NCBI GenBank assembly: GCA_009760855.2
Contig: WPIO01000020.1
Span: 5,527,501 to 5,591,500 of the forward strand
Direction of reading: 5' to 3'
From: Cristatella mucedo
Lineage: Eukaryota; Bryozoa; Phylactolaemata; Cristatellidae
DNA length: 64,000 bases
The notes beneath the pieces are model-generated. The model made no database searches. It was given only the letters and a program-made list of their open reading frames with translations, and was not told the origin of the DNA. The number at the start of each line of letters is the position of its first letter. Position 1 is the stretch's first letter. This document shows positions 3,545 to 64,000 of this stretch, piece by piece. Both the position numbers and the translations under genes were made by a program.

Positions 3545-4035
3545 TATTTAGAGCATCGGAAACTCAATGCTCATTAAGATTGCTTGGAATGGTATGCTTT
3601 TAAGACTCGCTTGCTTATGTTCCATTACCCCACAGTAATTGTAGTGGACAGGAATGCTGGTATTGCCTCGACGATTGGAATCAGTCAACGCATGATTTAT
3701 TCATCCAACCGTGATAGGTTCCCTGTAGGTTATTTTAGTGGTAGTTATTGTAGGGTCAACATACAAGTATGTTTAATGGCATCATCTACAGTGTCAGCAC
3801 ATATAAACACGTAAAGGACGAATCACAGTGACCCATTAAATGCTTGAAATGTCGTGACACAAGTCGAGAGTGAGTTTCAGGGTGTGGACGCCCACGAACT
3901 AAAGGCACGGTCTCCAAATGATTGGAAATTGTTTACGAGGTATAGTTAAAGAGTTACATTCCGAAAGCGGTTAGTAAGATGTTTAGCCTGGTGGGGAGTA
4001 CATAGGATTTTTATGCTTTAGCCACAGAATGAATG
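3545..4035 (-). mobile_element. LINE-B 3' end, inverted and eroded
   Basis: On the plus strand this reads as the reverse complement of the LINE-B 3' region. It runs from a worn tail (GGAAACTCAATGC near 3558), through the 3' UTR repeats (GTCAACATACAAGTATG near 3753, ACAGTGTCAGCACATA near 3788), to the C-terminal coding part (AAGGCACGGTCTCCAAATG near 3902, CCTGGTGGGGAGTAC near 3988). The same order recurs at 34876-35120 and 59440-59905. No frame is open. Confidence 0.75.
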
Positions 4036-5810: not shown

Positions 5811-5811
5811 G

Positions 5812-6415
5812 TTTTTAAGTCCCACAGGTTTGACCGCACTTCACCTTTGCTAAAAGAGCTAAGATGGCCACTGACTGATCAACAGATATGCAGCAATGCT
5901 CTTACGCTGACCCATAAGGCCCGCCACGGCTTGGCTATTCCATACCTAGCTGAACGGCTGCACTAATTTCAGCCTCCTCGTGCCCTCAGGTCCTGTATGG
6001 ACAATAAATTAGCTGTACAATTCCTTTGCTGAAAGACCATTGGCAGCATAAGCTTTAGCTCTGCAAGTCCAACACTGTGGAACTCGCTTCCACGATTCTT
6101 TAGCAACGACAACTACTCTCCTGCTGCCGACTATGGCTCATCCCTTTCAATGGTCCTGAGCTGCTACTTCCATGCTACTTACTACCTCAACTGCTCTCCT
6201 GACTCTGCTCTCCTGACTCTGCTCTCCTGACTCTGCTATGCTTCCACTTTCTCTCTGTTGTGTGAGATGAAGCCTGATGGCTACCAAGCTACCTGAGCAC
6301 CAAAAGCCGCTTAGGCTGCGAGTGCGCTATACAAAACTGTGCCGCGTAACAGCCGCATAGTCTTTGTGTTTTTATGAATTTACAGACGGAGATACATTAA
6401 ATCACTTTTCTGTAA
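5812..6415 (+). mobile_element. LINE-A, 3' part with tail
   Basis: This is the C-terminal coding region and 3' UTR of LINE-A. It begins at TTTTTAAGTCCCACAGG (5815) and ends with the family 3' end ACAGACGGAGATACATTA (about 6384-6402). The coding part is broken by stops and indels, and a 14-bp unit (TCTCCTGACTCTGC) is present three times at 6195-6236 where other copies have one. It is 5'-truncated, as is usual for products of target-primed reverse transcription. Confidence 0.9.
6195..6236 (+). repeat. 14-bp tandem triplication inside LINE-A
   Basis: TCTCCTGACTCTGC occurs three times head to tail with no mismatch. The LINE-A copies at 57065 and 63835 have one unit. The extra 28 bp is not a multiple of three and would shift the reading frame, so it arose in a dead copy or killed this one. 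Confidence 0.95.
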
Positions 6416-6561: not shown

Positions 6562-6705
6562 ATAAATGCATAATTTATTTGTACAGCACCCTAAGAGAAC
6601 CCAATCTATTCAGGCGCTTCACATATGCCACGGGGCTCAAGCCCATGACCCGGCAGGACCTTGGTGGAGGAGAGCACCTTAACCACTAAGCCAATCACTA
6701 CCCAT
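6562..6705 (-). mobile_element. SINE-1 copy (tRNA-derived, LINE-B-like tail)
   Basis: Read on the minus strand, a tRNA-like head (TTAGTGGTTAAGGTGCTC; B-box-like GGGCTTGAGCCCC) is followed by the tail AAGCGCCTGAATAG-ATTGGGTTCTCTTAGGGTGCTG. It has the same parts as the copies at 7303 and 21752. Nothing is encoded; the 60-codon plus-strand frame over it is incidental. Confidence 0.85.
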
Positions 6706-7302: not shown

Positions 7303-7440
7303 ATAATAATAATTCATTTTTATAGCGCCCCAAGAGAACTTAATCTCTATTCACGTGCTCCACATGTGCCTCAGGGCTCGAGCTGATGACCTCAGCCAGA
7401 CCTTGGTCGGGGCGAGTACCTTTACCGCTGAACCAATTCA
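7303..7440 (-). mobile_element. SINE-1 copy with (ATT)n tail
   Basis: On the plus strand it begins with AATAATAATAATTC at about 7301. This is followed by TTTTTATAGCGCCCCAAGAG, the tail AACTTAATCTCTATTCA, a B-box region (GGGCTCGAGC), and the head ending near CTGAACCAATTCAGC. This is the clearest case of the ATT-repeat tail on SINE-1, the same kind of tail as on LINE-B. Confidence 0.9.
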
Positions 7441-7629
7441 GCTAGTTAAAATAGTAGATGGATTTCAGCCCAAAAATGCTAAGCTGGCAAGAATATAACA
7501 CGCAAGCGGGAAGAAATTTAGTTGATAAACCGGAAGCACTTTATTCTGTAATGTAGAATAAAAACCGTGGTAGCGAAACACTTATAGAGAAATTGGCAGC
7601 TGTATCATAGTTTGATCATGCATGTAATT

Positions 7630-9521: not shown

Positions 9522-10531
9522 TTAAATGATCACGCGAAGGAAAACTACACTCCGTTGGATACCGTTTTCATATAGAACGGCTAAATAGCGGTGCTTGTTG
9601 CAGTCCAATGTCGATAACTTGCTTATCTTATAATGTAAAAGCTCGCCAGGCGTTTTGAAAAAGGTCATCAGTTGACCAGCTAAAGTGTGGTGTAGCTCCT
9701 TAACCACATTCATGCTAACATCAGTTAGATACAAAAACATCCTATCTAAAGAGAAGCAAGTATCCGAGACGTCGTATGTGTAATTTAGATTCCACAACAA
9801 CTTGCCTTTGTGAGTGATACATTTGATGTGATTAAAGTCAAGTTCCCGTTGAATTGTCACTATCCACTGGTCAGTGATTGCAAGGCACTCAATTTCCTCT
9901 TGGCCGTATCGTATGATAACCGGTTCAGTGTCATTACTTGAATTTAGCACGATAACGTAGCGATCAGCGGGGGATCTACCAGCCTTATAGTAATCGAAGG
10001 CTGATTTTGCCATCGCATAGCCATAGGAGGTGGATTTAGCATTCATATAGCGATATGAGGCGGATTCAGCGTTCTTCGGTGCGTTTCTTTTGTAGCAAAG
10101 CAAACCGACTAGATTGCCGTGACAGGTCAGCTGTTTAACCGTACCATGGCTCAGCTGCCATCGCTTGGCCTCCTGCCACGTCCCTGTCAGTTGACCGCGA
10201 GTTGTTGGCTTTAGTGCTACGACAGCTCGCTGTACGTTAAGCCACGTGATGATACTGGGACCCTCTGTAGAGCAATCTCCCAAAACGACGTCCACATGCT
10301 TAAACGTATCTCTTAACTGATCATTTTTGTATCCTGGATTCCAAGTTGAAAGCGAATCTCCATCGTCGTTGCAGATTGTTATGCCTTCAAGGCCACAGGC
10401 AAACGCAACCATATTAGGACTCAATATTGCTACGTCACTGCACTGGAAATTGAGATGGACAATTCGAAGGCTAGTATCAGATGCTTTATAAGGATCACTG
10501 CCTTTACTGTTATCTCCACTTGGATGTATCT
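9522..10531 (-). CDS. 3' exon of an unrecognised protein gene
   Basis: This is the longest open frame in the window that is not retrotransposon or microsatellite. It reads on the minus strand for over 330 codons and ends at the TAA at 9522-9524. The frame stays open upstream of the nominal start at 10424 (there a TTG, so not a convincing initiator) to a good acceptor, a T-rich tract then TTCAG, with the exon beginning at 10531. I therefore call it the terminal exon of a multi-exon gene, with upstream exons not found. The product is soluble-looking with no signal peptide or membrane span. Alternating strand-like segments (VVLGD, IITWLNV, VKQLTCHGNLVGLLCY, RYVIVLN, WIVTIQREL, KLLWNLNYTYD, RMFLYLTD) would fit a beta-propeller, but no WD or kelch signature is clear. 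Three 10-residue repeats lie in the middle. Function unknown. Confidence 0.75.
9981..10070 (-). repeat. three 10-residue coding repeats
   Basis: Within the minus-strand exon, counting from the codon at 10424, residues 119-148 fall into three units: AESASYRYMN, AKSTSYGYAM and AKSAFDYYKA. The 30-bp DNA units are similar too (ATAGCCATAGGAGGTGGAT and ATAGCGATATGAGGCGGAT on the plus strand). In-frame 30-bp expansion suggests replication slippage in a loop that tolerates extra Ser/Tyr-rich residues. Confidence 0.85.
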
Positions 10532-12019
10532 CTGAACGAATGAAACAAAAATCACAATAAAAGTTAGGTATAAAACAGCAACTGTGGATTTAAATTGGGA
10601 TCAGCAAGCATCATTGACGCACTCAATGTCAGTCTAAGGAGGGCTTCTTCTACTAGTATCTAGTAAGTGAGACCACTAGTGATAATGGTCAGTAAGTTGA
10701 AGAATTTTAGCGAGTCTAATGAATAGAAATAACAAAAGATCGACTTCCAATTGCACCTTTATAAACAAGTGTTTACTCCTGCCTCGAGTATTTACATCAT
10801 GGCTTTGAAAGAAGGAATGCCTGAGGCTTTCTGGTAATAATTATCGAGACGATCCCAGAGCTAGTTGGGTACATGCATGCCACCATGCAACGACAATTGA
10901 TTATACATAAATTAAACTTTTATTACGCCCTAATTGGTGTATAGGGCAATAAGTATATGCTTATAAATGCGGCTAATTCACCGTGATTCTAGCAGTTCAT
11001 AGACTATCTAGATGGAGCAAATAAACCAGATAAAGTGTTAGAGGAGTCAGATATTTTCATGTTTCGGGGCAGGAAGACTATCTTGAAGTGATACATGGCA
11101 TACCAAATTATAGGGTGTATTTGATAATATAAAAAACTGCATCAGATATGCCAATTAAAGCAAATAATAATCAAAGGTGGGCCCAGTGTAGAAAACATGA
11201 GTCGAATGGAAACAGCTTAGCAGAATCTCCAACTAGAAACCTAATCTGAATCTTGCTTAGGTAAGCAGGCAAAGTGAGCGCCGAAACGAGTTTCATCTAT
11301 GCATTTGAGTAATGCAAGCCGGAACAGGTTCCTCTTGAGCTACGACTTAAAAAAGATGCAAAGTCATTGCTATTAATGACTGTAAGCCCCACGTAACTGG
11401 AGCTCTAGACTTTGATTGGTGCGAGGTGAAGGTCTGAACACCAAAACAACGCAGTTTATTATTAGGAGATAAGGTTTCTGACTAGCCGTTGGCGTAAGGG
11501 TAAACTGGTGTAGCAAGTTAACCGGATACAATAATAGATGAACCAACGTCTCAATGTTTAGGTAGGAAATGACCTATAACTAATGACAATTATAATGCCA
11601 AATCACGTTGTATATTTGCTAATATAAGTCTGACCCACATAAACCCATGCTCGTATCCATTCCAGACTGTCAGTGCTCTATCGGTACTACGTCCAGTTTC
11701 CTATCGATTAGAATGCTTTGAAAGAACAAGGCAGCTCCTCCCGTTGTACTGTATAGAAATAACACCATGCCCGTATACTAACTACTCTTCTGCCCAGAAC
11801 GGGTAGGCGAGTGTAAGGGAGTACATTTACATATAAAGGCTTGGCATTCTTAAACGTATTTTAATTCCTAGTGGGAAACCACTAGAGTTCACACAGAAGC
11901 CAGTTGAGTTTCAGTAGCTTGATAAACCTTGACCTATATACCAGAAACCTGAAGCTTAAGATAATTAAAAAATATCCACGTTTCACTCAGTTTTAGTCGT
12001 CGAGAGCTAAGAGCTATTT
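10532..12019. other. probable intron or intergenic, nothing recognised
   Basis: Upstream of the acceptor at 10532 I find no further convincing exon on the minus strand and no known repeat. Confidence 0.4.
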
Positions 12020-16359: not shown

Positions 16360-16580
16360 TAAACTTTGTGCTTATGGTTGCTGACACTGTGTATACAACT
16401 ATTAAAAATATTTGCATGCTGACACTGTGAATATCACCTCTAATCATGTTATGCTTGTTGTCATTGAGCTTGCTACCACTACCCATTCGATAGCACTTCC
16501 TTTGCAGCTAATTAAAAGTGTCTAGAAAGACAGAGTTATATGAGGGTGCTATAAAAAACTTAATTATCATTCTTATTATC
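16360..16580 (+). mobile_element. LINE-B 3' UTR and tail
   Basis: It contains the family 3' UTR text: GCTGACACTGTG twice, ATCATGTTATGCTTGTTG, ACCCATTCGATAGCACTTCC. The worn tail is GTCTAGAAAGACAGAG then GAGGGTGCTATAAAA. The coding part is absent, so this is a short 5'-truncated insertion. Confidence 0.8.
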
Positions 16581-17894: not shown

Positions 17895-18075
17895 GGTTAA
17901 TTATAATAATAATACAATTGATAAAGCACCCTCGGAGAACTCAATCTATGTCTTGGCACTTTACATTTGTTGCAAAGTAAAACACGATCGAATGTTGAGT
18001 GGTATCAGACTCGATAAGCAACATGAATAGCATGGATAGGGGTGACATGCACAGGTTCGGCATGCAATTTTAGCT
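17895..18075 (-). mobile_element. LINE-B 3' end, inverted
   Basis: It begins with AATAATAAT near 17904. The inverted tail follows (TTGATAAAGCACCC, GGAGAACTCAATCTATG, GGCACTTTACATTTG), then 3' UTR text (CGATCGAATGTTGAG, GATAAGCAACATGAATAGC, GACATGCACAGGTTCGGC). The coding part is missing. Confidence 0.88.
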
Positions 18076-19259
18076 AGTTGCAGGTTTTCTTTGAGTAATT
18101 TTGTGAAGATCTATTGTACCTTAGAAGAATTAATTGAGAATTTCCGAATGCATTGTAAAGTTAAGCTCTTGTGATACCCATGCCGTAGTGCTCAGTATGG
18201 ACCATTCTTTTGCATAGGCATTATGAGACTGTATGTAACCTCAGGAATTGCTGTCGATTCGGTTGCACTGGAAGCGATTTCAGCTCGCTTATTGTCTTGT
18301 GGCTATAAAAACAGTGTATCATCCGTTGCCGATGGCTTTTATGATCAGCAGTTGCTTCAGGGAATGGCCAATATTCAAATATCCCTGTTTGCAGCTTACC
18401 TAATTTACTGTTTAATCTGATCGGTAGGTTTTTGTGTCGGAACTCTTTATATGATGTTTAAAAGTTTCATAAGTTTGAACAGTTCTCTCGACGCTGCAGC
18501 ACAAAATGGTACGTATCCCTGAAGAATGAAGGATGAGGGCATTCGCCTGAATCTTCAGCTTTCTCAAGGAAAGCTTCACTCAGCAGACACAACGTAATGC
18601 TTGAAGGGTACGGGGAGAACATCTGAGCAAGTCATAATGGTGTTTAGTTGATTAGGACACGTCAGGAGCTTGCTCGGTCACAATTCAACCAACGAATGTG
18701 CAATAAACCCATAACAATTCATGAAATACATATAGACTTAATTATCAACTTTTTCTCTTTTACCGAGACCTTGATGAAACCAGCTAATTGCCTCACCATT
18801 TTCAAAGCAAACAACAGGCTTCTCTTACGTCCATAGCAATAGATCAGTCTAAATTAGGAAAATAATTACAATTGCCGAAATTATTTCCCACTATTTCAAA
18901 AACTTTGAAGTCTCCTCGAAGCAGTGCTATATTTAGGAAACTTCACTTGAGTACCTTCGACCACAAGCGGCCACTGGTGGTAGTAATCTGGTGTCCCAGG
19001 TACTAAGTCATCACAGATTTACAACTTGCGTGGCTTCATTTCAATTAAGGGACTTACACATTTATATTCTCTCATTATAGCTGTTTTCAACATTCACTTT
19101 CATCACTTGAACAACGCCTTAAGAGCAGTCCTTTGTGAAGTGACTGACTCAATTTTTTGTGGCTCATGTGCATGACCAAACGCACGATAAGAGACAAACA
19201 CATTTTAGCACACACAAAATTTGTCCCAAAAACGCATGCTGCAATCCTTTAGGTTCATT
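18076..19259. other. no recognisable feature
   Basis: Short frames at 18223-18420 and 18648-18836 have no domain or splice context. Confidence 0.4.
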
Positions 19260-20110
19260 TAATTCTGCTCATATAGATGTACTTGGATTTCATTCTATCT
19301 TCGTGGTGTGATCCTTAACACATGTAAACAAGTGGGTGAATTTCGATATCACTAGGCCGCTGACATCGATGCTGTCTGCACGCAACTATTCTTTTCGATC
19401 ATGCTGCTCAATCCCGCTTCCGACCTGTAACTACTGGTAGAATGCTGCAGCAAGACCCTAGCTGGTATGCTGAACTACGTTTTCAATTCTAACCAGTAGC
19501 CATTAGCCCCTATCAACATGCCGTGCGATCAACTGCAGGCAAAGTCTAGCTACATTTACTGAGCATAAGCTTAAGAAAGCACGTACACATTATCAGAACC
19601 TACTGCCTCCAGCCAGGCAAGAGACGACTGCTGGAGATTCTACGGACTGAATCTGGCTAAGGCCTAATCTATCTTCCATAAAACAAAAATACCGAGGAAT
19701 AGCAGAGGCAAGAGTTATCTCTAGGTCATACGAACCTAAAATCCTTTGAGCATCGTACATTTAGTTGGTATGCTCCCGAAGTCTGTAAATCACTCCCAAT
19801 TGATGTTACGACATCGATAGTCTTGACGACATTTAAAAAGAAACTAAATGTGCACCTGCTGGTCACATTATATGCCAGGTAAATGCAAGTTGTCCTTTAA
19901 ATGCATTCATGTGCTTATACTGAGCTATGCAACCACTAAACGAATTTACATGCTCACACTGTTCATGTTTCCTCCTATCATTGTATGCATTTTGACTTTG
20001 CACATGTTTCCACTAATTATTTTCTTATTCTTCTCGGTCTGCGTGTAAAGTGAATAGACAGAGATTAAGTTATGGGAGCGCTATGCATGACTTTCTCATA
20101 TTACTACGGC
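19260..20110 (+). mobile_element. LINE-B, old partial copy
   Basis: The segment near 19400 (CATGCTGCTCAATCCCGC) matches LINE-B at about 39300. The segment near 19740-19830 (CGAACCTAAAATCCTTTGAG, TATGCTCCCGAAG, GACATTTAAAAAGAAACTAA) is the family C-terminus, normally read as TNLKSF, YAPExWNSL and FKxxLKTHL. It ends with a 3' UTR and worn tail (GAATAGACAGAGATTAAG, GGGAGCGCTATGCATG near 20050-20085). Frames are broken throughout, and parts of the RT region are deleted. Confidence 0.75.
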
Positions 20111-21751: not shown

Positions 21752-21895
21752 CTTGCCGAGCTGGTTTGGTCTAGCGGTTAAAGTGCTCGCCTCGATCAAG
21801 GTCTGACTGAGGTAGTGGGCTCGAGCCCCGAGACATATGTGAAGCGCCTGAATAGAGATTAAGTTCTCTTGGGGCGCTATATAAATGTATGAATT
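21752..21895 (+). mobile_element. SINE-1 copy, best preserved
   Basis: The tRNA-like head carries an A box TGGTCTAGCGG (21767-21777) and a B box GGCTCGAGCCC (21818-21828), the internal RNA polymerase III promoter of tRNA genes. The tail reads AAGCGCCTGAATAGAGATTA, then AGTTCTCTTGGGGCGCTATA, then TAAATG. A functional tRNA is unlikely: no intact acceptor stem can be paired and the 3' part is not tRNA. The tail is shared with LINE-B. Confidence 0.92.
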
Positions 21896-23757: not shown

Positions 23758-23895
23758 ATGATAATAATAATGCACATGATAAAGGGGCCTCGGAGAACTC
23801 ACATCTCTTTCTAGGTGCTGTACGTTTTCTGCAAATGAAAATCGGTATGCGGCAGTATAAGAGTGCTAAGCAATAAATCTAGGGTAGGGAATGTC
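23758..23895 (-). mobile_element. LINE-B 3' end, inverted
   Basis: ATAATAATAATGCAC near 23760 is followed by the inverted tail ATGATAAAGGGGCCTCGG, TCTCTTTCTAGGTGCTG. Only a short piece of 3' UTR remains. Confidence 0.85.
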
Positions 23896-27481: not shown

Positions 27482-27640
27482 TTATAATAATAATAATAAT
27501 GTACTTGATAAAGAGCCCTCAGAGAACTTAATCTCTTTCTAGGCGCTTTACATTTGCTGCAAAGGAATCAACTTCGGAGGCTCTTTCCCGGACCGTGTTC
27601 GATAGGATCAGGACATATTCCAGGATCGTCATCTGAGCAG
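27482..27640 (-). mobile_element. LINE-B 3' end, inverted, well preserved tail
   Basis: ATAATAATAATAATG then TACTTGATAAAGAGCCCTCA, GAGAACTTAATCTCTTTC, TAGGCGCTTTACATTTGC. This is one of the cleanest copies of the inverted LINE-B terminus. The similarity fades after about 27640. Confidence 0.9.
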
Positions 27641-28494: not shown

Positions 28495-29250
28495 TTGGAA
28501 CTCCCAGCTCCCATAGACTCGTGCAAGCTCCATAATGCAGATTCTTAACCCTGGTGCAAAAGTCTTGAATTATGTAACTAACTGCTGCTGGTCTACCGGT
28601 CTGTGATCTCAGGCACTTATAGCTGGTGCAAAACTCTGCAACTAGTCTTGTCTGTTGTGAGCATAGCAATTGTCACATCCCACCACTTCATGCCGACCTG
28701 TGCTGGCTCCCAATCAAGCAATGGATTTACTTCATAGATTTCTCACTCACATTCAGGTCTCTTCCATCTACGGCTCAAGCCTACCTATCAGTTCTACTCC
28801 CCTACCAGGCTAAGCATTGTACCACCCATTTTTGGGAATCGACCTGTTTACCTTAAAATAAATATTACTAGTACAAACTTCAAATCCTTTGGAAACCATG
28901 CCTTTAGTTCGTATGCTCCCGAAGCCTGGAACTCACTATCGACTTGTGTCACATCTTCCGACTTGTCAAGATTAAAAATAAATGAATCTGTTCATTGCAG
29001 CATCTACTGGTTTCCTGCGATTCTTCCTTTACGTCCTTATTCTTGCTGACACTTTGCTTGCTGCTACCAACAATACTTCCATGCTGACCCTATGAATGTG
29101 GCCCCTAACCACGTTATTCTCGTTGTTTATGGGGCGTGCTACCACTAATCATTCGACCATGCTTCCTTTGCTGAAAATGCAGAGTGCCTAGGTAGAGATT
29201 TAATTATCTGATTTACTTATCTATATCAAATGCACTATTATTAAAACTAC
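28495..29250 (+). mobile_element. LINE-B, C-terminal coding region, 3' UTR and tail
   Basis: It runs from text matching the GAKLCN/QNSAARLV region (GGTGCAAAACTCTGCAAC near 28625), through TAAGCATTGTACCACCC, TTCAAATCCTTTGGAAACC, TATGCTCCCGAAGCCTGG and AATGAATCTGTTCATTG. The 3' UTR words follow (CATGCTGACCCTATGAATG, ACCACGTTATTCTCGTTG, CATTCGACCATGCTTCC), then GCCTAGGTAGAGATTTAATT near 29188. Stops interrupt every frame. Confidence 0.88.
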
Positions 29251-34875: not shown

Positions 34876-35120
34876 GTAATAATAATGTATTCAATATGGC
34901 ATAGTCAGAGAACTCTATCCCTTTCTAGGTTCTTTACTTTGCTGCTGAGTAAGTACGATCAAATGGTTAGGGGTAGCATGGTCAATGACAAGAAGCATAA
35001 CACGATTGGGGGTAACATGCACAGGGTCAGCATGCAAATATGGTTAGTGGCAGCATGCACAGTGTCAGCATACACAGGCATGTAAAAGACGAATAACATG
35101 GACCTGCTAAATATTGTAAT
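34876..35120 (-). mobile_element. LINE-B 3' end, inverted
   Basis: TAATAATAATGTATTC then inverted tail (AGAGAACTCTATCCC, TTTCTAGGTTCTTTAC), then 3' UTR repeats (GGGGTAACATGCACAGGG, GGCAGCATGCACAGTGTC) and TGTAAAAGACGAATAAC. It is a good view of the internally repeated 3' UTR. Confidence 0.9.
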
Positions 35121-35384
35121 AAGTAGAAGCGCTTTTATTAGGCTCTTTTTTAAATACTGTCAAGTTAAGGGAAATCGTGAAGAAATTTGGTGGTTAGTTC
35201 CAGGCTCTGGGACCACAATGATGACAGCAAAAGATGGTGATGAAAGTGTGAGAAAAGCAGAGATCGCGAGAGATATGAAAACTAAGACGCTGTCTTTGCC
35301 ACAAGAAAAGAAAGTGGAATGTTTTAATGCTGGTATGATGGCCTCATGTTAAAGGAAAAGTTTGGGAACAATAGCCAGTTACTT

Positions 35385-35465
35385 CTATGTAAAGCCCCAA
35401 GAAAGAGATTGAGTTCACTGAGGGCGCTTTATCTAGTGCATTATTATTATTATTATCATTATTAC
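35385..35465 (+). mobile_element. LINE-B terminal tail, plus orientation
   Basis: CCCCAAGAAAGAGATTGAG, TTCACTGAGGGCGCTTTATC, then ATTATTATTATTATCATT. Only about 80 bp of the element remains. It faces the inverted copy at 34876, about 270 bp away. Confidence 0.9.
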
Positions 35466-41324: not shown

Positions 41325-41624
<300 letters not shown>

Positions 41625-41870
41625 GTGTGTGTGCATGCTGTCACTAATCATATTCTCATGCTGATCCTGTGCATGTCAGCCCTAACCATGTTATCCTTTC
41701 TGCCACTGAGCAAGCTACCTCTACCATTAGACCGCACTATGCGGCATGTGCAAAGTGCCTGGACAGAGATTGGGTTTTCCAATGCTACTATGTCATATGT
41801 TACTATACGTTATGTTATGTTGTGTTATGTTATGAGTACTATAATTATTGTCTTTCTTTAATAATTATTC

Positions 41871-42419: not shown

Positions 42420-43760
42420 ATGAATGTAATGTAATGTAATGTATCTCCGTCAGTAACTCACACAAAGTCATAAAGACCATGTGGGTGTTACGCAGGAGAG
42501 TTTTGTATAGCGCACTCACAGCCTAAGCGGCTTTCGGTACGCATTCAGTAGCTAACAGACTTCGTCTCACGCAACAAAGAGAAAGCGGGAAGCAACGCAG
42601 AGTCAGGAGAGCAGTTGAGGTAGTGAGTAGCATAAAAGTAGCAGCTCAGGACCGCCGAAAAAGATGTGCCACAGTCGGCAGTTGGAGAGTAGATGTCGTT
42701 GCGTATGAATTGTGGAAGCGAGTTCCACAGTCTAGGACCTGCAGAGCTAAAGCTTCTGTCGCCAACTGCCTTTAAGCGGAGGAATGGGACAGCTAATTTA
42801 TTGTCCACACAGGACCTGAGGGCACGAACAGGCTGAAACTAATGCAGTAGTTCAGCTAGGTACGAAGGAGCCAAGCCGTGGCGGGCCTTGTTGGTCAGCG
42901 TAAGAACTTTGCTCCGTATCCTTTGCTCAACCGGCAACCATCCTAGCTCTTCCAGCAAAGGTGACACGTGCTCAAACCGCTGGGACTTGAAGACCAGCCT
43001 TGCAGCCATATTCAAAGTCCGCTGTAGTGGCATAATAGCTTTCTTTGGTAGCCCAGCCAAAAAGGAATTACAATTATCAAGCCGAGACAGAACTAAAGAG
43101 CTAGTTAAATTTTTTCAAGCCACTGTGGGAGACAGCTTCTAATCTTGGATAGGGATTGGATGCGATGGCTAGCTGTAGAGGCAGTCTTCTGAATGAAGCT
43201 TTTGAAATTGAGGCAGCTGTCGAACACGACACCTAGATTACGAGCACGTGGTGAAGGTCGCACAATAGCATCACCTATTATAACAGCAAAGCCTTTTAAT
43301 CCAGCGACACGCTTAGGGTGTCCTATGAGAAGCAGTTCGGTTTTATCGTCATTTAATTTCAGGAAGTTTTCCGACATCCAGGATCGAATATCGGCAAGGC
43401 AAGCATTCAGTTTCTCAGTTGCTGCAGCAGATTCCGACGGTTTAAATGACAAATACAACGGAGTATCGTCAGCACAGAAGTGATATCCTATTCCATGGGC
43501 CCTAATCACTTTTCCCAGAGGTTGTGTATAAATGGAGAACAGCAAGGGACCAAGTACAGACCCTTGAGGGACTCCACAGGTGACCCTCCTCATGTCTGAG
43601 ACCTGACCCCCACACGACACGGATTGAACACGATCAGACAAGTATGATTTAAACCACACCAGTGCTTCGTCTGCCAGACCAATCGTTGTTCTCAATCGTT
43701 CAAGCAGAACTTTGTTATCAATGGTGTCGAAGGCAGCAGCGAGGAGCAAAACCTGTCCAT
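42420..43760 (-). mobile_element. LINE-A, young 5'-truncated copy
   Basis: On the plus strand it starts with the inverted tail GAATGTAATGTAATGTAATG, then TATCTCCGTC. It runs through the 3' UTR and C-terminal region to the RT palm, breaking off near 43735-43760. The last 680 bp are almost the same as the copy at 62778-63467. The coding frame carries only a few lesions: two nonsense codons in the C-terminal part and a one-base loss near 43106. It is 5'-truncated, so it cannot move by itself. Confidence 0.95.
42545..43060 (-). pseudogene. LINE-A ORF2 C-terminal region
   Basis: Two frames (42839-43060 and 42545-42808) read MAGLPKKAIMPLQRTLNMAA then RLVFKSQRFEHVSPLL, and GDRSFSSAGPRLWNSLPQF. They are parts of one region separated by one nonsense codon, TAG at about 42838, where the sister copy at 62778 has CAG. 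A second nonsense TGA ends it at about 42546 where the sister has CGA. The role of this post-RT region is not well defined in the family. Confidence 0.9.
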
Positions 43761-43839
43761 TCGATGCATTAATAATAGCCAGTGCAGGGTGCAGGGCAAT
43801 GAAAAGTAGAACGTTGCCCAACTGCGAAGCTCTCGGCAT
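43105..43839 (-). pseudogene. LINE-A reverse transcriptase, nearly intact palm
   Basis: The frame of about 244 codons gives AAFDTIDNKVLLERLRTTIG, WFKSYLSDRVQSVSCGG, CGVPQGSVLGPLLFSIY, and the catalytic box FCADD. It then continues with SWMSENFLKLNDDKTELLLI and ARNLGVVFDSCLNFKSFIQK. RT motifs A to D are all present with both YADD-type aspartates. The N-terminal 30 or so residues after the nominal start do not match other copies and belong to flanking DNA. The frame ends by a frameshift at SCLPQWL. Confidence 0.92.
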
Positions 43840-44460
43840 GCAAGCAAAGCAGCTAATTATGTCAGACCTGTAAGTACCAGCGAGTGCAAGTAAGTGTGAG
43901 AAGAGTCACCCTAATTGCGTGCAATGTTACGGCATACTTGAACGGTAGCAGGCTGTCGATAAGCCGAGCTAGCCCAATGTGCCGCTCTGCCACTATTTCT
44001 TCAGGTCGAAGTAGTGAGGCTGTGAGAGTGACAATACTTTGGTAGGATAGTTCAATCTGGGTTCCCGCATGAGCTAGTTTATTTTTAAGCAGATCGTGAT
44101 TGTAGTATTTTCAAAATGTAATTTACTTTAGTCTGATTTATTGCTAGTTTTTATCATAATAAAGATCGGTTTAAGTTGTTTGCATGCGTGATTGTCTTAT
44201 TGCCGTATTATGGCCGATGGCTTTATGGCTGCATGCTTATGGACCATATCGGTTTATGGGTAATGGTTTAATGATGGTGGGTCACTGCCGGGTCTGAAGC
44301 TGGTGAGGGAAACAGGATTAAGAGGAGAACCAATTTGTGGTGTGATGCTGTGAGTATTTATGGAATACACCAGTGTTGAAGCCCCCCTCGGTGTCTGCAC
44401 TTCGTCTTTTGTGTATCCGCGCGTACTGGGATCAGAGCGTCAGCTTACAGCGTGGCCCCC
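43761..44460. other. unassigned; possible LTR-like end
   Basis: The stretch from TGTCAGACC (43860) to CAGCTTACA (44455) begins TG and ends CA, and is followed by GCGTGGCCCCCC. The last 90 bp are GC-rich like an LTR U5. No matching second LTR or target duplication is found, so this is only a note. Confidence 0.2.
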
Positions 44461-45009: not shown

Positions 45010-45895
45010 TCTTAACAGCTGCTGCTAAGCGTGTGACAGAACTGGAAGGCTTTGCTCTTGAAATAGGTGAGGCTTTTTACGACCATCACCAAGTGCTCGA
45101 AATTTAGGTGTCGTTTTTGAAAACTGCCTAAATTCTAAAAGCGTCATTCAGATGACTGCTTCTACAGCTAGCCAAGACGTCCAAGCTCTATCTAAGGTTA
45201 GAAGCTGTCTTCCGCTGAGGCTTGCAAAAGCGTTAACTAGTTCATAGGTTCTGTCTCAGCTTGATTTCTCTACTTCCCTTTTGACTGGGCTACCGAAAAA
45301 AGCAACTGAGACAGTGCAAACGGCTGTGAATGTGGCTGCAAGGCTAGTTTTTAAATCCCACAGGTTTGAGCACGTGTCTCGTTTGCTTAAAAAGCTAGGA
45401 TGGCTGCCGGTTGATCATCGGATACAGAGCAAAGTTCTCAGGCTGACCCACAAGGCCCACCACGGCTAGGCTCCTCCAAACCTAGCTCAAATGCTACACC
45501 AATTTCAGCTTCCTCGTGCCCTCAGGTCCTGTATGGACAATAAATTATGTTCCACGGCTCTTCTTAAAGACCGTTGGCTACAGAAACTTTAGCTCTGCAG
45601 GTCCTAGACTGTGGAACTTGCTTTCACAATCCTTATGCAACAACTACTCTTACGCTTTCGGCTATGGCACATCCTTTCCAGTGGTCCTGAGCTGCTACTT
45701 CCATACTACTCACACCTCAACTGATCTTCCGACTTTGCTATGCTTTCCACTTTCTCTTTGCTGCGTGAGATGAGCCTGTTGGCTACCTAATGCGAACCCA
45801 AAGTGGCTTAGGCTGTGAGTGAGCAATAAAAAAACTCTCCTGCATAACACCCACATTGTCTTTTCCATAGTGGAGTTAAAGACGGAGGTACATTC
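45010..45895 (+). mobile_element. LINE-A, 5'-truncated copy
   Basis: It starts in the segment after the RT palm (AAGCGTGTGACAGAACTGG) and passes TGCTCGAAATTTAGGTGTCG and AAAAAAGCAACTGAGACAG. It ends in the 3' UTR at GTTAAAGACGGAGGTACATT, with hardly any tail repeat. It is older than the 42.4 kb copy, with many substitutions. Confidence 0.93.
45281..45773 (+). pseudogene. LINE-A C-terminal region
   Basis: Frames 45281-45469 and 45516-45773 show TGLPKKATETVQTAVNVAAR, FEHVSRLLKKLGWLPVDHRI and VGYRNFSSAGPRLWNLLSQ. They belong to one ancestral frame now split by stops and indels. Confidence 0.88.
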
Positions 45896-47584: not shown

Positions 47585-47941
47585 ATGCTACTTTTTTTTA
47601 CTCTAAAACTGAAGTCCTGCCAGTCAGACCCAAAACAGTTATACAAGAGAGTAAACAATTTACTAGCTAATGCTGAAAGGTCTGACTCCCCATACACTAA
47701 CGGCTCAGCCGAAACGCTTTCAGATTTCCTTGCTGCAACTATTGCGCACGTGCCTGCCTCCGTAAAGCTATCTCGGAATAAAGCAATTGCGGAATCGCAA
47801 CGTGTGACCTTTGTTTATAAATTTACCAAGGTTTCTGCATGCAACGTTGCTACCTTAATAAGGTCTAGTAAAAAGAGCTCGTCTTCGCTCGTCTTCTTCT
47901 ATGTCATCATCTCTGTAGTCTTCACTGACAGACCAACTTAG
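47585..47941 (+). pseudogene. LINE-A linker between endonuclease and RT
   Basis: The frame carries KSCQSDPKQLYKRVNNLLAN, ERSDSPYTNGSAETLSDFL and ATLIRSSKKSSSS, matching 61320-61600 of the other copy. This region precedes the RT fingers. Confidence 0.85.
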
Positions 47942-48153
47942 CCCTGACATAACCGAGATTTGCAATTTTTCTTAGGAAATAGGCTTCGTAACCAAGCCCT
48001 TCAAATCGGCAACCCTTAGACCGCCACTTAGAAAACCTGCACTAGATACAGATATCCTTGCAAGCTATCTCATAGCTTCCCTTTTCCATTTTAGTCAAAG
48101 ATTCTTAAAAAAGTATCGCTAAGCAGCTGGTATAACCTATTGAAAAGAAGGAA

Positions 48154-48369
48154 ATGTCTGAAACATTTCAACCTGGGTTCAAGAGGCAGCACTCAACTGA
48201 AACTGCTCTCCTTCGTGTTAATAATGACATTCTGTGTATAAACGATGACGGAAATGTCAACGCCCTAGCTCTGCTAGATCTTTCAGCTACCTTTGACATC
48301 GTCTATCATGATGTCCTACTTGCACGATTTAGGACAACCGTTGGTCTTGCAGGCGGGGCCCTGGCGTGA
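48154..48369 (+). pseudogene. LINE-A RT motifs before the SINE insertion
   Basis: FQPGFKRQHSTETALLRVNN and LALLDLSATFDIVYHDVLLA are RT motifs 1-A. The frame is lost at ALA, where a short deletion removes the FKS of WFKSYLSD. Confidence 0.88.
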
Positions 48370-48444
48370 ATACTTGTCTGATCGCGTTCTATCCGCATCG
48401 TATGTGCTTCAGGTCTCACCCACGAGACGGGTCACCCGTGAAGT

Positions 48445-48612
48445 TGGTGAGCCGTGACGTCACACTGGGGAAGACGGTTGTTTTCACGAACTCGGTCCCG
48501 AGGTCATGGATTCGATTCCTGCGGTGGGCGATTCTTTATCGCCACTGCAAGCGGTGGTGATAGCCGTAAAGGCTTTCCTGTGGCTATACAAAAGGAGGCT
48601 GTTTAATCAGCT
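48445..48612 (+). mobile_element. SINE-2 copy nested in LINE-A
   Basis: This is the most complete SINE-2. Head GGTGAGCCGTGACG; the ACACTGGGGAAGACGG A-box region; B box GATTCGATTCC (48509-48519); GCGGTGGGCGATTC; then the body ACTGCAAGCGGTGGTGATAG, CCGTAAAGGC, CTGTGGCTATACAAAAGG, GCTGTTTAATCAGCTAGG. The insertion splits the LINE-A RT region, with a possible 3-bp target duplication (AAG at 48441-48443 and 48618-48620). It is therefore younger than that LINE copy. Confidence 0.92.
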
Positions 48613-48819
48613 AGGATAAGACCCTCAAGGGTCTGTCCTCGGTCCATTGCTGTTCTCTATTACAACACTCAACCTCTGGAAAAAGTTATTAAGGCCCGTG
48701 GTATAGGATATTACTTTTTTTCCGACGATACTCAACTGTATTATTAGTCATTCTAACCGTCGGAATCAGCTGCAGCAAATGGTATACGGTATGCTTGCCT
48801 TGCCGAAATTCTATCCTGG

Positions 48820-49077
48820 ATGGTGGAAAACTTCTTCAAACTAAATGATAATAGAACTGCACTGTTGCTCACATGCAACCCTAAGCGCGTGGCTGGACTA
48901 TACGGCATTTCTCTTCTAATAGGTGATGCTTATATACGACCATCACCACGTGCTAGAAATGTAGGTGTGATTTTTTTGATAGCTAAAAAATGTTTTAAAA
49001 GCCTCATTCGGAATACTGCTTCTTTAGCTATTCATCGCGTCCAATCCCTATCCAAGGTATGGAGCTGTCTTCTATGA
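48820..49077 (+). pseudogene. LINE-A RT, segment after the catalytic box
   Basis: VENFFKLNDNRTALLLTCNP and RPSPRARNVGVIF match the other copies. The frame ends at a stop after SLSKVWSCLL. Confidence 0.88.
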
Positions 49078-49258
49078 TGGCTTGACAAAAATAATCTAGC
49101 TCCTAACTTCTCTCTCGGCTTGATAATTATAGTTTCCTTTTGGCTGGGCTACCAAAAAAAGCAACTAGGCCAGTGCAAATAATTATGAATATGGCCCAAA
49201 GCCTAGTTTTCAAGTCCCGGAGGCTCGACCATGTGTCTCCTTTGCTAAAAGAGCTAGG

Positions 49259-49474
49259 ATGGCTGCAGTTAATCAACGGATACAGAGCAAAGACCTTATG
49301 CTGATCCACAAGGCCCGCCACGACTGGGCTCCTTCGTGCCAAACTGAACTGCTGCACCAGCTTCAGCTTCCTCGCGCCCTCACAACCGGTGTGAACAATA
49401 AATTAGGTGTTCCATTCTTCTGCTTAAAACCTATTGGCGGCAGAAGCTTTAGCTCTGCAGGTCCTACACTGTAG
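49259..49474 (+). pseudogene. LINE-A C-terminal fragment
   Basis: QLPRALTTGVNNKLGVPFFC then LKPIGGRSFSSAGPTL matches the family C-terminus. A stop replaces the codon after PTL. Confidence 0.85.
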
Positions 49475-49744
49475 AACTTTTTTCGACGTATCTTAGACAG
49501 CGACAAATACTCTCCAGACGCCGACTAGAGCTTATCCTTTCCAGCGGTCCCGAGCTGCTAATGCCATGCCACTCACTACCTCAGCTGTTCTCCTTACTCT
49601 GCTATACTTCCCACTTTCTATTTTTGCACGAGAAGAAGTCTGTAGGCAACCAGATGCACACCAAAAGCCGCTTAGGCTGCGAGTGAGCTATACAAAATTC
49701 TATGCGTAACACTTACATGATTTTTGCGGCTTTGTGGAGTCACA

Positions 49745-53344: not shown

Positions 53345-53875
53345 AAAGTATTTTGACGCTCACTTTTAGGTTCCGTCCTTTGGCTCTAGCCTGATTATTA
53401 GATCTACTCCACCCCACCAGGCCATGTATCCTACCAGCCACTTTTCGGAATCTAATTGTTTACCCATACCTCGTACGAACCTCAAATCCTTTATAGACTG
53501 TGAATTTATTTCGTATGTTCCCAAAGCTTGGAACTCACTCCGACTTCCATCACGACATTCTCTTACTTGACCATATTTTCTAAAAAAATTTAAAACAGCA
53601 CCTATTTAGGACAGCCTTTAGTGAGTACCTGCGATTTGTTTTTATGTGCTTATGCATGCTAGCACTGTTGCATTCTGCCACTAGCCATACTTGCATGCCG
53701 ACCCTGTGGATGTTACCTCCAACCATGTTATTCGTGTTGCTTATCACACATGATACCACTTACCATTCGATTATATTTCCTTTCAAGGAAATGTAAAGCA
53801 CCTAGAAAGAGGATGAGTTATCTGAGGTTGCTTTCTCAAGTGTATTACTATTGCAACTGTTATTCCTCTCTTTTT
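53345..53875 (+). mobile_element. LINE-B, C-terminus, 3' UTR and tail
   Basis: The coding text corresponds to TNLKSF, a SYVPKAWNSLRLPSRHSL stretch and a LKKFKTAPI stretch. It is followed by the 3' UTR (TTATGCATGCTAGCACTG, CATGCCGACCCTGTGGATG, CATTCGATTATATTTCC) and the tail CACCTAGAAAGAGGATGAG, TTGCTTTCTCAAGTGTATTA. This is one of the better 3' UTR copies. Confidence 0.9.
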
Positions 53876-56889: not shown

Positions 56890-57245
56890 TCTGGACGAAA
56901 ACCAAAGACCGTTGGCGACAGAAGCTTTAGCTCTGCAGGTCCTAGACTGTGGAACTCGCTTCCGCAATTCTTACGCAAAGACAACTACTCTCCTACTTCC
57001 GACTATGGCTCATCCTTTTCAGTGGTCCTGAGCTGCTACTTTCATGCTACTCACTACCTCAACTTCTCTCATGACTCTGTTATGCTTCTCATTTTCTCTT
57101 TGCTGCGTGAGACGAAGTCTGCTGGGTACCGAATGCGTACCGAAAACCGCTTAGGCTGTGTGTGCGTTATCCAAAACTCTCCTGCGTAACACTCACATGG
57201 TCTTTATGACTTTTTGGAGTTCAGACGGAGAAACATTACATTACA
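56890..57245 (+). mobile_element. LINE-A, short 3' copy with pentamer tail
   Basis: This is a 350-bp 5'-truncated copy. Its coding frame from 56875 reads KTVGDRSFSSAGPRLWNSLP, LRKDNYSPTSDYGSSFSVVL, and ends QNSPA at the family stop, so the C-terminus is intact. The 3' UTR ends GGAGAAACATTACATTACAG, showing the ACATT repeat tail. Confidence 0.95.
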
Positions 57246-58515: not shown

Positions 58516-58837
58516 CCTTACCAACATACGGGATATTAAGGTTAGAAACTGTGAGAATTAGTAGGCTTAGTTTTGAAAGTTATAGCGAACACCTATGAAT
58601 AGCCACAGTTTAATAAGACCTCTTGCTAGTTAAATACAAAGAGTCTGGCATGTGTATACCCTCGAGGCACGCAGAAAGAACTCTAGTTTTCAGGACGAAG
58701 GAAAACCTGAAGAAAAAAATGTGATATTGGCACAAACTTATAAAATGCGCGAAATTTGCAAGTAGCATTTGTAGATGGAAGTGAGTTTTTATTTTTGTGC
58801 GTCAGAGAAGCTGGCTCGATAACCAAAGGATTTAATA

Positions 58838-58965
58838 ATAATGATACACTTGATACAGCGCCCTCAGAGAACTCAATCTCTTTCTAGGCACTTTACATTT
58901 GCTGCAAAGGGAAACGCAATTGAATGCTGAATAATACCATGCTTGATAAACAACAAACCAGCCCA
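58838..58965 (-). mobile_element. LINE-B 3' end, inverted
   Basis: TAATAATAATGATACACTTG then ATACAGCGCCCTCAGAGAAC, TCAATCTCTTTCTAGGCAC, TTTACATTTGCTGCAAAGG, followed by GAATGCTGAATAATACC. The terminus is well preserved. Confidence 0.9.
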
Positions 58966-59439: not shown

Positions 59440-59905
59440 GTAATAATAATAATAATAATGATGATGCTCTTGATAAAGCACCACAGAGAACCCGATCTCT
59501 TTCTAGGCGCTCCTTGCTGCAAAAGAAAACCGGTAGAAAGGTAAGTGCTACCATGCTCGACAAATAACACGAGCAGCAGTTAGCGGTCAGGGGGACGCTC
59601 ACAGCATCAGCATGCAAGTGTGGTTAGTGGCAGCAGGCACAGCTTCAGCACGCATAAGCTTATAAAGAACGAATCGCAGAGACCCACTAAATGCTCTCAT
59701 AAAGAGGTGTTTTTTGTTTCTTTTAAATGTGGAAAAGTCAGGAGATACCACTTCGAAAGTCAGGAGAGAATTCCGGGCTTTGAAAGCATATGAGCTAAAT
59801 GCACGGTATCCAAAGGGTTCGAGGTTTGAACGAGTTACAGGTAAACAGGTAGATTCCGAAAGCGAGTGGTGCGATGCTTGGCCTGGTGGGGACCTTTACT
59901 TGATT
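59440..59905 (-). mobile_element. LINE-B 3' end, inverted, longest inverted copy
   Basis: AATAATAATAATAATGATG, then the terminus (TTGATAAAGCACCACAGAG, CGATCTCTTTCTAGGCGC), 3' UTR repeats, CGAATCGCAGAGACCCAC, and the reverse complement of the C-terminal coding end (TTTAAATGTGGAAAAGTCAG, GCACGGTATCCAAAGGG, GGCCTGGTGGGGACC). It directly abuts the start of LINE-A. Confidence 0.9.
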
Positions 59906-60027: not shown

Positions 60028-60666
60028 TACCTACCGGCGGGCCTTCTCCGGCGCGTCAGTGAGATTCTTCCTGCATCCTGCGTTCGCCCTATCTACAGCT
60101 CGGCTATCAAACCTACGACTCGTAAGTTTAAAGCACTGAATAGTACTCGTTGCGGTAGTAGCCCACCCACCGTAGCCCAGCATGCTGTGAAACGTCGTCC
60201 GATTGCCGTTACCAAGGTTCAATTCAAATTCGAAGAGCCAGCCGGGCCGGACGCAAACGGTAGAGAATACAAGCCACTTCATCGCCGTCGCCCAGCAGTT
60301 GGACAGCCTCTGAAATTCCGCCTACTAAATGTCCGCTTGCTAAAAACCAAAGTATTACTTATTCGCGATCAGGTGGTCCATGAGAACCGAGATGAATTTC
60401 TGCTTACCGAAACCTGGATGACGCCTTGTTCCAGTAGCTGTATTTCCAAGACCTCTCCACCCGGGTTCTCATCCTCTCAGTCCATGCGTTCTGACAAGGT
60501 TGGTGGCGGGGTTGCAATTGTTGTTCGCGAATCGTTTGGCTATACAATGTGCAGTTTCTCGCATGGGTCATTGTCTGAATCTGTTGCTATCAGGTCTTCA
60601 TCAAAGATAATGCCTCTCACTGTTGTGATATCCGGCCTCCTTCTGGCTGTCCAAACTTGTTTGTAG
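60028..60666 (+). pseudogene. LINE-A endonuclease domain, first part
   Basis: The frame is open from about 60028; the start usually given at 60187 is a GTG. LKFRLLNVRLLKTKVLLIRD, DEFLLTETWMTP, PPGFSSSQSMRSDKVGGGVA and IVVRES are the opening motifs of CR1-type endonucleases: NVRSL, the metal-binding Glu in TETW, and the GGGVAI strand. The frame shifts near 60660 into the next segment. Confidence 0.9.
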
Positions 60667-61031
60667 AAGAGTTTTCAGAGTTCCTCGCAAAAATATCTGT
60701 GTGTGACAGGCCGTTACTGATTGTAGGAGACTTCAATATTCACGTTGACAACCCTGGCAACAGCCAGGTCCGCTCATTTTTTGACTGTCAGGACAATTTT
60801 TGTTTGGCCCATAAGGTTAATCATAGCACCTACGTCGGTGGCCACATTCGAAATCTCGTGATCACTAAGGATGTCCTCCCGACTGACCTTGTGGTGTGCC
60901 CACTGACCCTCTCAGATCATTGTTCGGTTTCGTTTACTGTTCCTGCTCCCTCGTACGTACAGGGCGTCGAATTTGCCAAACGACGTAACTTACAAAGCAT
61001 TGACATGGAAAGTTTTAAAATCTGTTTGTGA
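60657..61031 (+). pseudogene. LINE-A endonuclease domain, second part
   Basis: PLLIVGDFNIHVDNPG (GDFN at about 60726-60737), THNKG-equivalent NHSTYVGGHI, and LTLSDHCSVSF with the catalytic SDH triad member at about 60920. All visible catalytic positions of the exonuclease-endonuclease-phosphatase fold are retained here, in contrast to the LINE-B copy. The next frameshift is near 60990. Confidence 0.9.
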
Positions 61032-61529
61032 TGCAGGTCTTCTTGATCTGCATTCAGACTCGACCGGTAGCCTCGATACCCTCACTGATGCGATAAACAT
61101 GACACTCAGGAGTGCCCTTAACAAGCATGCTCCCGTTCGCTCTATCCGCGTTCAAAGTCGTGGAGATTCCTTTCAATTTAAAAAAAACTCCTAAAAATGC
61201 TCCGGGTTAAGCTCAGGCTTGAACGTCGTTTCAAGAAATCTGGGTCTGATGCAGATCTATTCAATTTCAAAGACTTCTTTCGAGTTTACACCCGAAAGCT
61301 TAGAAAAACCAGTGCTTCTCTTTTCATTAGAAAACTAAATTCCTGCCAGTTGGACACTAAACAGATTTATAAGACAGTAAACCATTTACTGGCCAATGCT
61401 GTGAGGTCTGACTCCCCAGATATTAAGGGCTCAGCCGAAATGTTTTCATCCTTACTAAAAAAATTGTGCACATTCGTGCCTCTATTAGGCCCCCTCCGAC
61501 CAAAGCAGTCGCCGTTCCTCAACCTGTGA
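60973..61529 (+). pseudogene. LINE-A linker region
   Basis: Two frames (60973-61194 and 61197-61529) carry the Arg/Lys-rich connector: RSALNKHAPVRSIRVQSRGD, LRLERRFKKSGSDADL and QIYKTVNHLLANAVRSDSPD. In intact elements this connects endonuclease to RT. A stop (TAA near 61192) and then a frameshift near 61480 disrupt it. Confidence 0.85.
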
Positions 61530-62240
61530 CCTTCCTTAAAAGATTCTCCGACGTTTCAGCAACCAATGTGGCTGCCTTAATAAGATCTAGCAAAAAGAGC
61601 TCGTCTCTTGAAGACCCTATACCTTCATCTCTGTGGTCTTCACTGGCAGACCAACTTAGCCCTGCCATAACCAAGATTTCTAATGCTTCTTTCGGAAAAA
61701 GGGTCGTCCCCAAGTCCTCCCAATCGGCAATCGTTAGACCTATTCTTAAAAAGCCTCGATTAGACACAGAGGTCCTAGCAAACTATTGCCCAGTTTCCCT
61801 TCTTCCGTTCTTATCAGAGATTCTTGAAAAAATTGTTGCTAAGCAGCTGGTTGAACAAAATTAAAATAATGGAATGTCAGAAACATTTCAATCGGGGTTC
61901 AAAAGGCAGCACTCTACTGAAAACTGCTCTCCTTCGTGTTAACAATGGCATTTTTCGTGGCAACGTCGACGGGAATGTCCCTGCCCTAGCTCTGCTAGAT
62001 CTGTCTGCTGCCTTCAACCCCATTGATCACGAGGTTCTGCTTGAACGATTGAGAACAACGATCGGTCTGGCAGACGAAGCACTGGCGTGGTTTAAGTCTT
62101 ACTTGTCTGATCGTGTTAATCCGTGTCGTGTGACGGTCATGTCTCATACACGAGAAGGGTCACCTGTGGAGTCCCTCAAGGGTCTGTACTCGGTCCCTTG
62201 CTGTTCTCCATTTATATATAAACAACCTCTGGGAAAGTGA
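61466..62240 (+). pseudogene. LINE-A RT fingers and first palm motifs
   Basis: SSLEDPIPSSLWSSLADQLS, SAIVRPILKKPRLDTEVLAN, then YCPVSLLPFLSEILEK are RT motifs 0-1 (usually NYRPVSLLPFLSKILEK). A stop after VEQN (61862) splits the frame. Downstream are ALALLDLSAAFNPIDHEVLL and ALAWFKSYLSDRV. The Asp that ends the AAFD word is Asn here. The GVPQGS loop is lost to frameshifts near 62170-62240. Confidence 0.92.
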
Positions 62241-62287
62241 TTAAAGCCCATTGAATAGGATATCACTTCCTTGCTGACGATACTCAG

Positions 62288-62692
62288 TTGCATTCGTCAT
62301 TCAAACCGTCGGAATCTGCTGCAGCAACTGAGAAACTGAATGCTTGCCTTGCCGATATTCGATCCTGGATGTCGGAAAACTCACTGAAATTAAATAATGA
62401 TAAAACCCAACTGCTGCTCATAGGACACCCAAAGCGTGTGGCTGGATTAAAAGGCTTTGCTGTTTTAATAGGTGATGCTATTTCGCGACCATCACCACGT
62501 GCTAGAAATTTAGGTGTCGTGTTCGACAGCTGCCTCAATTTCAAAAGCTTCATTCAGAAGACTGCCTCTACAGCTAGCCATCTCATTCGATCCCTATCCA
62601 AGTTTAGGAGCTATCTCCCGCAGTGGCTTGTAAAAAATTTAACTAGCTCTTTTTCGTTCCGTCTCGGCTTGATTATTGTAATTTCCTTTTAG
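62288..62692 (+). pseudogene. LINE-A RT, post-catalytic segment
   Basis: The catalytic box just upstream reads FLADD (about 62268-62283). The frame then gives FKPSESAAATEKLNACLADI, NNDKTQLLLIGHPKRVAGLK and ARNLGVVFDSCLNFKSFIQK, matching the 43105-43839 copy closely. Confidence 0.92.
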
Positions 62693-62777
62693 CTGGGCTG
62701 CCAATGGCAAGCTATTATGCCACTAAAGCGGACTATGAATATGGCTGCAAGGCTAGTCTTTAAGTCCCAGTGGTTTG

Positions 62778-63467: not shown

Positions 63468-63476
63468 TTTGAGCAC

Positions 63477-63956: not shown

Positions 63957-64000
63957 CAACCACATGGTCTTTATGACTTTGTGGAGTTACAGACGGAGAT

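Follow-up and report, generated by a model that had tools for sequence, protein, structure and literature searches.

SINE-1 and LINE-B of Cristatella mucedo: a putative tRNA-type SINE with a 3' tail homologous to that of a LINE lineage

The 64-kb stretch of DNA analysed here (the window) contains copies of a short repeat, SINE-1, in which a tRNA-like head meets a tail of ~55 nt at a sharp boundary, the tail being homologous to the end of a LINE family, LINE-B. SINE-1 and the LINE-B lineage very probably form a partnership of the known SINE/LINE kind, in which the tail was captured and the SINE RNA is copied in trans. An earlier note on this DNA had proposed that SINE-1 borrowed the 3' end of LINE-B: the homology with the lineage stands (48 of 60 columns), but SINE-1 does not carry a copy of the present young LINE-B tail. 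The position that it gave for the element is borne out (Table 1).

On this reading, SINE-1 would be a tRNA-type SINE with its 3' third taken from the corresponding end of a LINE-B-lineage LINE. It would be transcribed by Pol III from its internal boxes, and the EN-RT protein of the lineage would bind a hairpin carried by both RNAs, nick the target and then start reverse transcription of the SINE RNA at its A/T-rich repeat end. We infer this transcription, hairpin binding and copying in trans, and hence the mobilisation of SINE-1 by the LINE-B enzyme. The partnership fits because the hairpin tip and loop are identical in young copies, the stem is conserved, the flanks have diverged and the element has a repeat end.

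Table 1. Positions in the 64-kb window of SINE-1, LINE-B and LINE-A features
Feature	Position	Strand	Remarks
SINE-1, first copy	21755-21888 (within 21752-21895)	+	full element, ~135 nt
SINE-1, second copy	7310-7443	-	83% to first copy; placed at 7312-7443 by similarity
SINE-1, third, older copy	6571-6694	-	79% to first copy; placed at 6577-6694 by similarity
SINE-1 tRNA-like head	21755-21833	+	precedes tail in 38 near-full copies (262-kb sample)
A box-like TGGTCTAGCGG	21767-21777	+	by eye against A-box consensus
B box-like GGCTCGAGCCC	21818-21828	+	by eye against B-box consensus, one departure
SINE-1 tail, probably LINE-derived	21834-21888	+	consensus 48/60 columns identical with LINE-B tail
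SINE-1 tail hairpin	21839-21882	+	fold z -5.16; loop TTAAGT at 21859-21864
LINE-B tail, short 5'-truncated copy	27489-27565	-	96% to LINE-B 3' consensus
LINE-B 3' end	58834-58955	-	93% to LINE-B 3' consensus
LINE-B 3' end	17903-18083	-	83% to LINE-B 3' consensus
LINE-B tail, truncated	23761-23842	-	87% to LINE-B 3' consensus
LINE-B 3' end	53592-53852	+	83% to LINE-B 3' consensus
LINE-B 3' end beside degraded RT C-terminus	59454-59715	-	78% to LINE-B 3' consensus
LINE-B 3' end	34877-35135	-	76% to LINE-B 3' consensus
LINE-B tail, example of the earlier note	35387-35451	+	94% over 65 nt
Old LINE-B relative	28998-29243	+	74% to LINE-B 3' consensus
Old LINE-B relative	16367-16574	+	75% to LINE-B 3' consensus
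Old LINE-B relative	41591-41806	+	69% to LINE-B 3' consensus
Very old LINE-B relative	19892-20081	+	65% to LINE-B 3' consensus
LINE-B 3'UTR fragment without tail	3752-3844	-	83% to consensus positions 21-113
LINE-A copies, comparison LINE	62231-64000		repeats; family end GACGGAGAT(ACATT)n, unlike SINE
LINE-A fragments	42461-43905, 45075-45832, 47899-49696, 56904-57233, 60028-64000, 5811-6393		

Homology of the tails and a common hairpin

Homology was assessed in a 262-kb sample, made up of the window and 20 stretches, each of 9.9 kb and surrounding a SINE match; these were picked from the best such matches and are thus biased to young SINEs. The sample holds 88 tail places, with a SINE head upstream of 35. 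Consensuses were built from 27 full-length SINE-1 copies and 17 LINE-B copies, and local alignment scores were judged against 2000 shuffles each. The consensus tails score 34.5, a value that none of 2000 dinucleotide-shuffled SINE tails reaches (mean 7.2, sd 1.39, maximum 15.5), and the tail match that the earlier note had described in single copies is upheld. As that note anticipated, the identity does not extend beyond the tail: when the SINE head is aligned with the LINE-B 3'UTR the score is 7.5, which 1462 of 2000 shuffles reach. Likewise, in a search of the sample with the LINE-B consensus, 26 of 31 SINE matches (E <= 1e-5) start at position 196, the position of the SINE head/tail junction. 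A better match to another LINE, which according to the earlier note would speak against its proposal, is not found in LINE-A, where the SINE tail scores 5.0 with the terminal 60 nt (1968 of 2000 shuffles do as well) and 10.0 with the whole 340-nt end (208 of 2000).

LINE-A is a second CR1/L2-like LINE in the window, present as EN and RT fragments, and two of its copies are mutually inverted at 62789-64000. It was rejected as donor: a SINE-end-like GCGCTATACAAA lies ~65 nt inside the element, the true end being GACGGAGAT(ACATT)n. The window also includes a 355-aa open frame at 9522-10589 (minus strand) without a Pfam match, possibly a host exon, and a long (TA)n stretch at ~72-278.

The SINE-1 and LINE-B tails adopt the same two-step hairpin, in which the outer stem has up to 11 pairs and the inner one 5; in SINE-1 an 11-pair lower stem with one mismatch and a 5-bp upper stem carry a 6-nt loop. 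Fold energies are -20.3 (SINE-1) and -22.4 (LINE-B) kcal/mol, with z scores of -5.16 and -4.99, the folded LINE-B tail having the G-type loop TTGAGT seen in most LINE-B tails of the window. The 16-nt tip AGAGAUUAAGUUCUCU (AGAGATTAAGTTCTCT) is identical between SINE-1 and young LINE-B, and as RNA reads AGAGA-UUAAGU-UCUCU atop a GCGCC/GGCGC lower stem; the 12 of 60 columns that differ between young SINE and young LINE-B tails include none within the tip. For the structural comparison 75 tails of 89 places were aligned, without the weakest 8 and without 6 nearly identical SINE rows. Paired cells make up 86.6% of this alignment, as against 36-66% with one side slid and 86.0% in letter shuffles, of which 15 of 500 reach 86.6%; 7 pairs have changes on both sides, a number within the 4-9 of the slid versions. 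The hairpin signal in these 75 tails is thus one of conservation more than of covariation. RNAalifold proposed no consensus structure for the alignment, and an Rfam search with the two tails gave no credible match.

Genome-wide, with up to 3 mismatches, there are 12,786 SINE and 49,411 LINE-B junctions, and perfect hairpins with free spacer letters number 18,044; reversed-pattern controls gave 0 for all three. The first 100 of the 18,044 perfect hairpins, taken in contig order, were listed; they comprise 82 of LINE type, a class that includes a handful of single-letter variants, and 18 of SINE type, with no third class among them; the loop has an A in 53 of the 82 and 16 of the 18. Upstream of the first 20 listed LINE-type hairpins, all on one contig, LINE-B sequence is present in every case, extending over more than 70 nt in 18 and truncated within 20 nt in 2. 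The earlier note had taken the presence of both partners in 64 kb as a clear case; by these counts a stretch of that length is expected to hold ~1.4 SINE junctions and ~5.5 of LINE-B, so the meeting of the two in the window is unremarkable.

Copies of SINE-1 and recent copying of LINE-B

SINE-1 has no coding capacity (it measures ~135 nt, and the site has no listed ORF of 90 aa) and, as its 12,786 junctions attest, a high copy number. ARAGORN reports no tRNA gene in the 64-kb window and at lowered thresholds only strained folds for the head; a lone candidate in sampled stretch L013, considered as the source tRNA of the head, is probably no real tRNA. Over the compared stretch 7 of 27 copies match the SINE consensus perfectly, these loci being best matches and hence a biased set; very old copies of 66-75% identity also occur in the 262-kb sample and, as either family may then be the older, were counted against the partnership. 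Target-site duplications are short and weakly above permutation, best terminal matches averaging 4.5 nt against 3.7 when permuted (reached 4 times in 1000; 27 copies). The earlier note had both families ending in ATT repeats. This applies to the second SINE-1 copy, which such an end adjoins at 7303-7311, and to young LINE-B copies, which also terminate in ATT-type repeats, but in most SINE-1 copies the 3' terminus, by eye, is a looser T/A-rich stretch.

Some elements are nested: a SINE copy lies within a LINE-B tail in sampled stretch L022 (4850-5012), and another adjoins LINE-B tail sequence in L086. At three places (G000:C77:4932562, C11:922061 and C133:5028548) a complete SINE is preceded, at a distance of 7-11 bases, by an additional SINE tail that points the same way, in a tandem-like arrangement.

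LINE-B-type tails occur at 10 clear and 2 weak places in the window. The example at 35387-35451 is 5'-truncated, similarity to the LINE-B consensus starting inside the tail, and the ~1 kb upstream of the old relative at 41591-41806 also resembles the LINE-B copy of sampled stretch L018. The ORF at 59599-59895, a degraded RT C-terminus beside a LINE-B 3' end, has no Pfam match. The local sample had pointed to a hot spot of truncation immediately above the tail, but only 2 of 20 further copies agreed with it, and the idea was dropped. A long (TGCG)n-type tract lies at 41355-41640, within an old LINE-B copy. Immediately 5' of the tail, for example at 27556-27565 (minus strand), stands CCCTTTGCAG, which is splice acceptor-like, so that host exons might be spliced to the LINE tail.

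A 393-aa C-terminal stretch of the LINE-B RT from L018 (P0001) matches Pfam RVT_1, shares 51% identity with the LINE-A RT across 199 aa, and in a PDB search gave weak matches only, to LINE-1 and R2 proteins. Among the best 105 of 176,299 first-look candidates, which were those scored, amino acid identity to the LINE-B RT is 96-100%, 103 are free of internal stops, and in 5 the frame is open for at least 1016 aa; copy L054 has one 1011-aa ORF with EN at 81-271 and RVT_1 at 555-783. Of 20 3' ends fetched from these 105 copies at the author's choice, 14 have a 3'UTR identical over 182 nt and 19 an A-type loop. With near-identical, uninterrupted copies and identical 3'UTRs, LINE-B has been copied very recently.

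Sequence motifs, the type of tail and a partial match, by eye, to a tail-binding region mark LINE-B as a putative L2-clade LINE. That region, the cTBR, lies between EN and RT and is described in PMC4176376 with Pro324, Trp325, Glu341 and Trp344 (ZfL2-2 numbering); with positions taken from the text of that paper, the ORF of L054 has a Trp and a Glu at the right spacing, Leu in place of Pro and Tyr in place of Trp344.

Probable donor of the tail and alternative readings

At 8 diagnostic positions, 107 of the 120 cells from 15 young LINE-B copies are of LINE type and 2 are in the SINE state, and 7 mid-age LINE copies show SINE states 9 times, 7 of these at two positions (CATATG, GCTATAT). A further 27 copies, LINE or unassigned and poorly matched upstream (48 of 216 cells in the SINE state), were set aside because they include truncated copies and likely SINE remnants; the copy L014:5546, classed as SINE in this comparison, is a LINE-B tail that follows a SINE. 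Intermediate tails, with a LINE-type left half and a SINE-type right half, were found 13 times. By their upstream sequence 8 have a clear SINE head, and in L077 and L086, the latter beside LINE-B tail sequence, it looks like a SINE remnant. In L076, L079 and L080 rare GCGCTATATAAAT tails stand without a SINE head; aligned with LINE-B upstream sequence, L080 scores a good 59, and L076 and L079 score 24 and 15.5, near or at chance. A SINE head joined to a LINE-B-type tail, as a SINE subfamily with the young LINE-B tail would show, was met at one place only. The pattern searches made yielded no LINE whose tail is wholly of SINE type: of 34 exact LINE-context pattern matches 5 had SINE letters, and all 5 were SINE-headed. 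That 48 of 60 columns agree, and that a few older relatives of LINE-B have SINE-like states, makes it probable that the tail came from an earlier member of the LINE-B lineage and not from the present young LINE-B. Tentatively, the parts of the tail that the enzyme does not read drifted separately in SINE-1 and LINE-B after the capture.

The present partner could also be a sister LINE of another L2-like subfamily outside the sample, young LINE-B being a cousin with a related hairpin. We regard this as rather unlikely, but as the most serious of the alternatives. The 20% difference between young SINE and LINE-B tails, the SINE-like CATATG and GCTATAT in several of the 7 mid-age LINE copies, and the three headless GCGCTATATAAAT-tailed copies, of which L080 alone aligns well with LINE-B, would agree with it; the absence of a third class among the 100 hairpins listed argues against it, as do the 8 clear SINE heads and 2 probable SINE remnants among the 13 intermediate tails and the fact that, of the LINEs seen here, LINE-B alone is young and abundant with the hairpin.

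Homology alone gives no direction, and with very old SINE copies present the LINE might in principle have acquired its tail from the SINE. This is very improbable: LINE-B relatives with as little as ~65% identity already have the tail, junctions of LINE-B are more numerous than those of the SINE (49,411 to 12,786), and L2 LINEs tested elsewhere require their own tail to move, as reported in PMC4176376. Nor do we give much credence to SINE-1 as an internally deleted LINE-B derivative (SIDE) instead of a tRNA-headed SINE, a type of element that does exist (PMC6740152) and that would likewise have the 3' end in common with its LINE, since the SINE head has no match in the LINE-B 3'UTR, the part of LINE-B compared, and carries A- and B-box-like motifs. 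Chance, or convergence on a common hairpin, could draw on the A/T-rich termini of both tails, but is practically negligible given that 0 of 2000 shuffles reached the observed score and that 18,044 perfect hairpins stand against 0 reversed.

Known partnerships and the signal that the enzyme may read

The sharing of tails between SINEs and LINEs is well known, and SINE-1 with LINE-B is a good new example of it. PMC3747384 lists shared-tail pairs for 58 SINEs, L2 and CR1 partners included. In its Table 1 the eel elements UnaSINE1/2 and UnaL2 likewise combine a tRNA-type SINE with the tail of an L2-clade LINE; the same source lists the UnaSINEs, which are likened to SINE-1 here by their tRNA type and their tail, as CORE-SINEs, and gives TGTAA repeats as the terminus of UnaL2, whereas that of LINE-B is made of ATT repeats. 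Invertebrate pairs of a tRNA SINE and an L2 element, likened here by description, are SINE2-8_SP with L2-1_SP in the sea urchin and Nve-Nin-DC-SINE-1 with L2-22_NV in the sea anemone (PMC3747384, Table 1). The HAmo SINE and HAmoL2 of carp are a further SINE/L2 pair with a common tail (PMC3747384, Table 1; PMC2653535), in a vertebrate host and also likened by description. Exact tail and head strings had no match in the set of papers searched, and no title in the literature listings consulted pointed to either family; SINE-1 or LINE-B may equal a Repbase family.

As described in PMC4176376, the EN-RT protein of zebrafish L2 LINEs binds their own 3' hairpin; the loop is decisive for recognition, the stem is exchangeable if the fold is kept, and swapping the hairpin abolishes retrotransposition. 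The presumed recognition by LINE-B is likened to that of ZfL2-1 and ZfL2-2 on this description. Whether the active LINE-B enzyme still moves SINE-1 despite the ~20% drift of the tail, the tip AGAGAUUAAGUUCUCU and the GC-rich lower stem being sufficient, we hold to be evenly balanced.

SINE-1 and LINE-B add to this known phenomenon a very abundant pair, recently copied on both sides. If the LINE-B enzyme does still move SINE-1, the pair would be a natural experiment on which tail bases are read by an L2-type enzyme; since the tail differences fall outside the hairpin core and the tip is exactly alike, it could help to define the minimal L2-type RNA signal.
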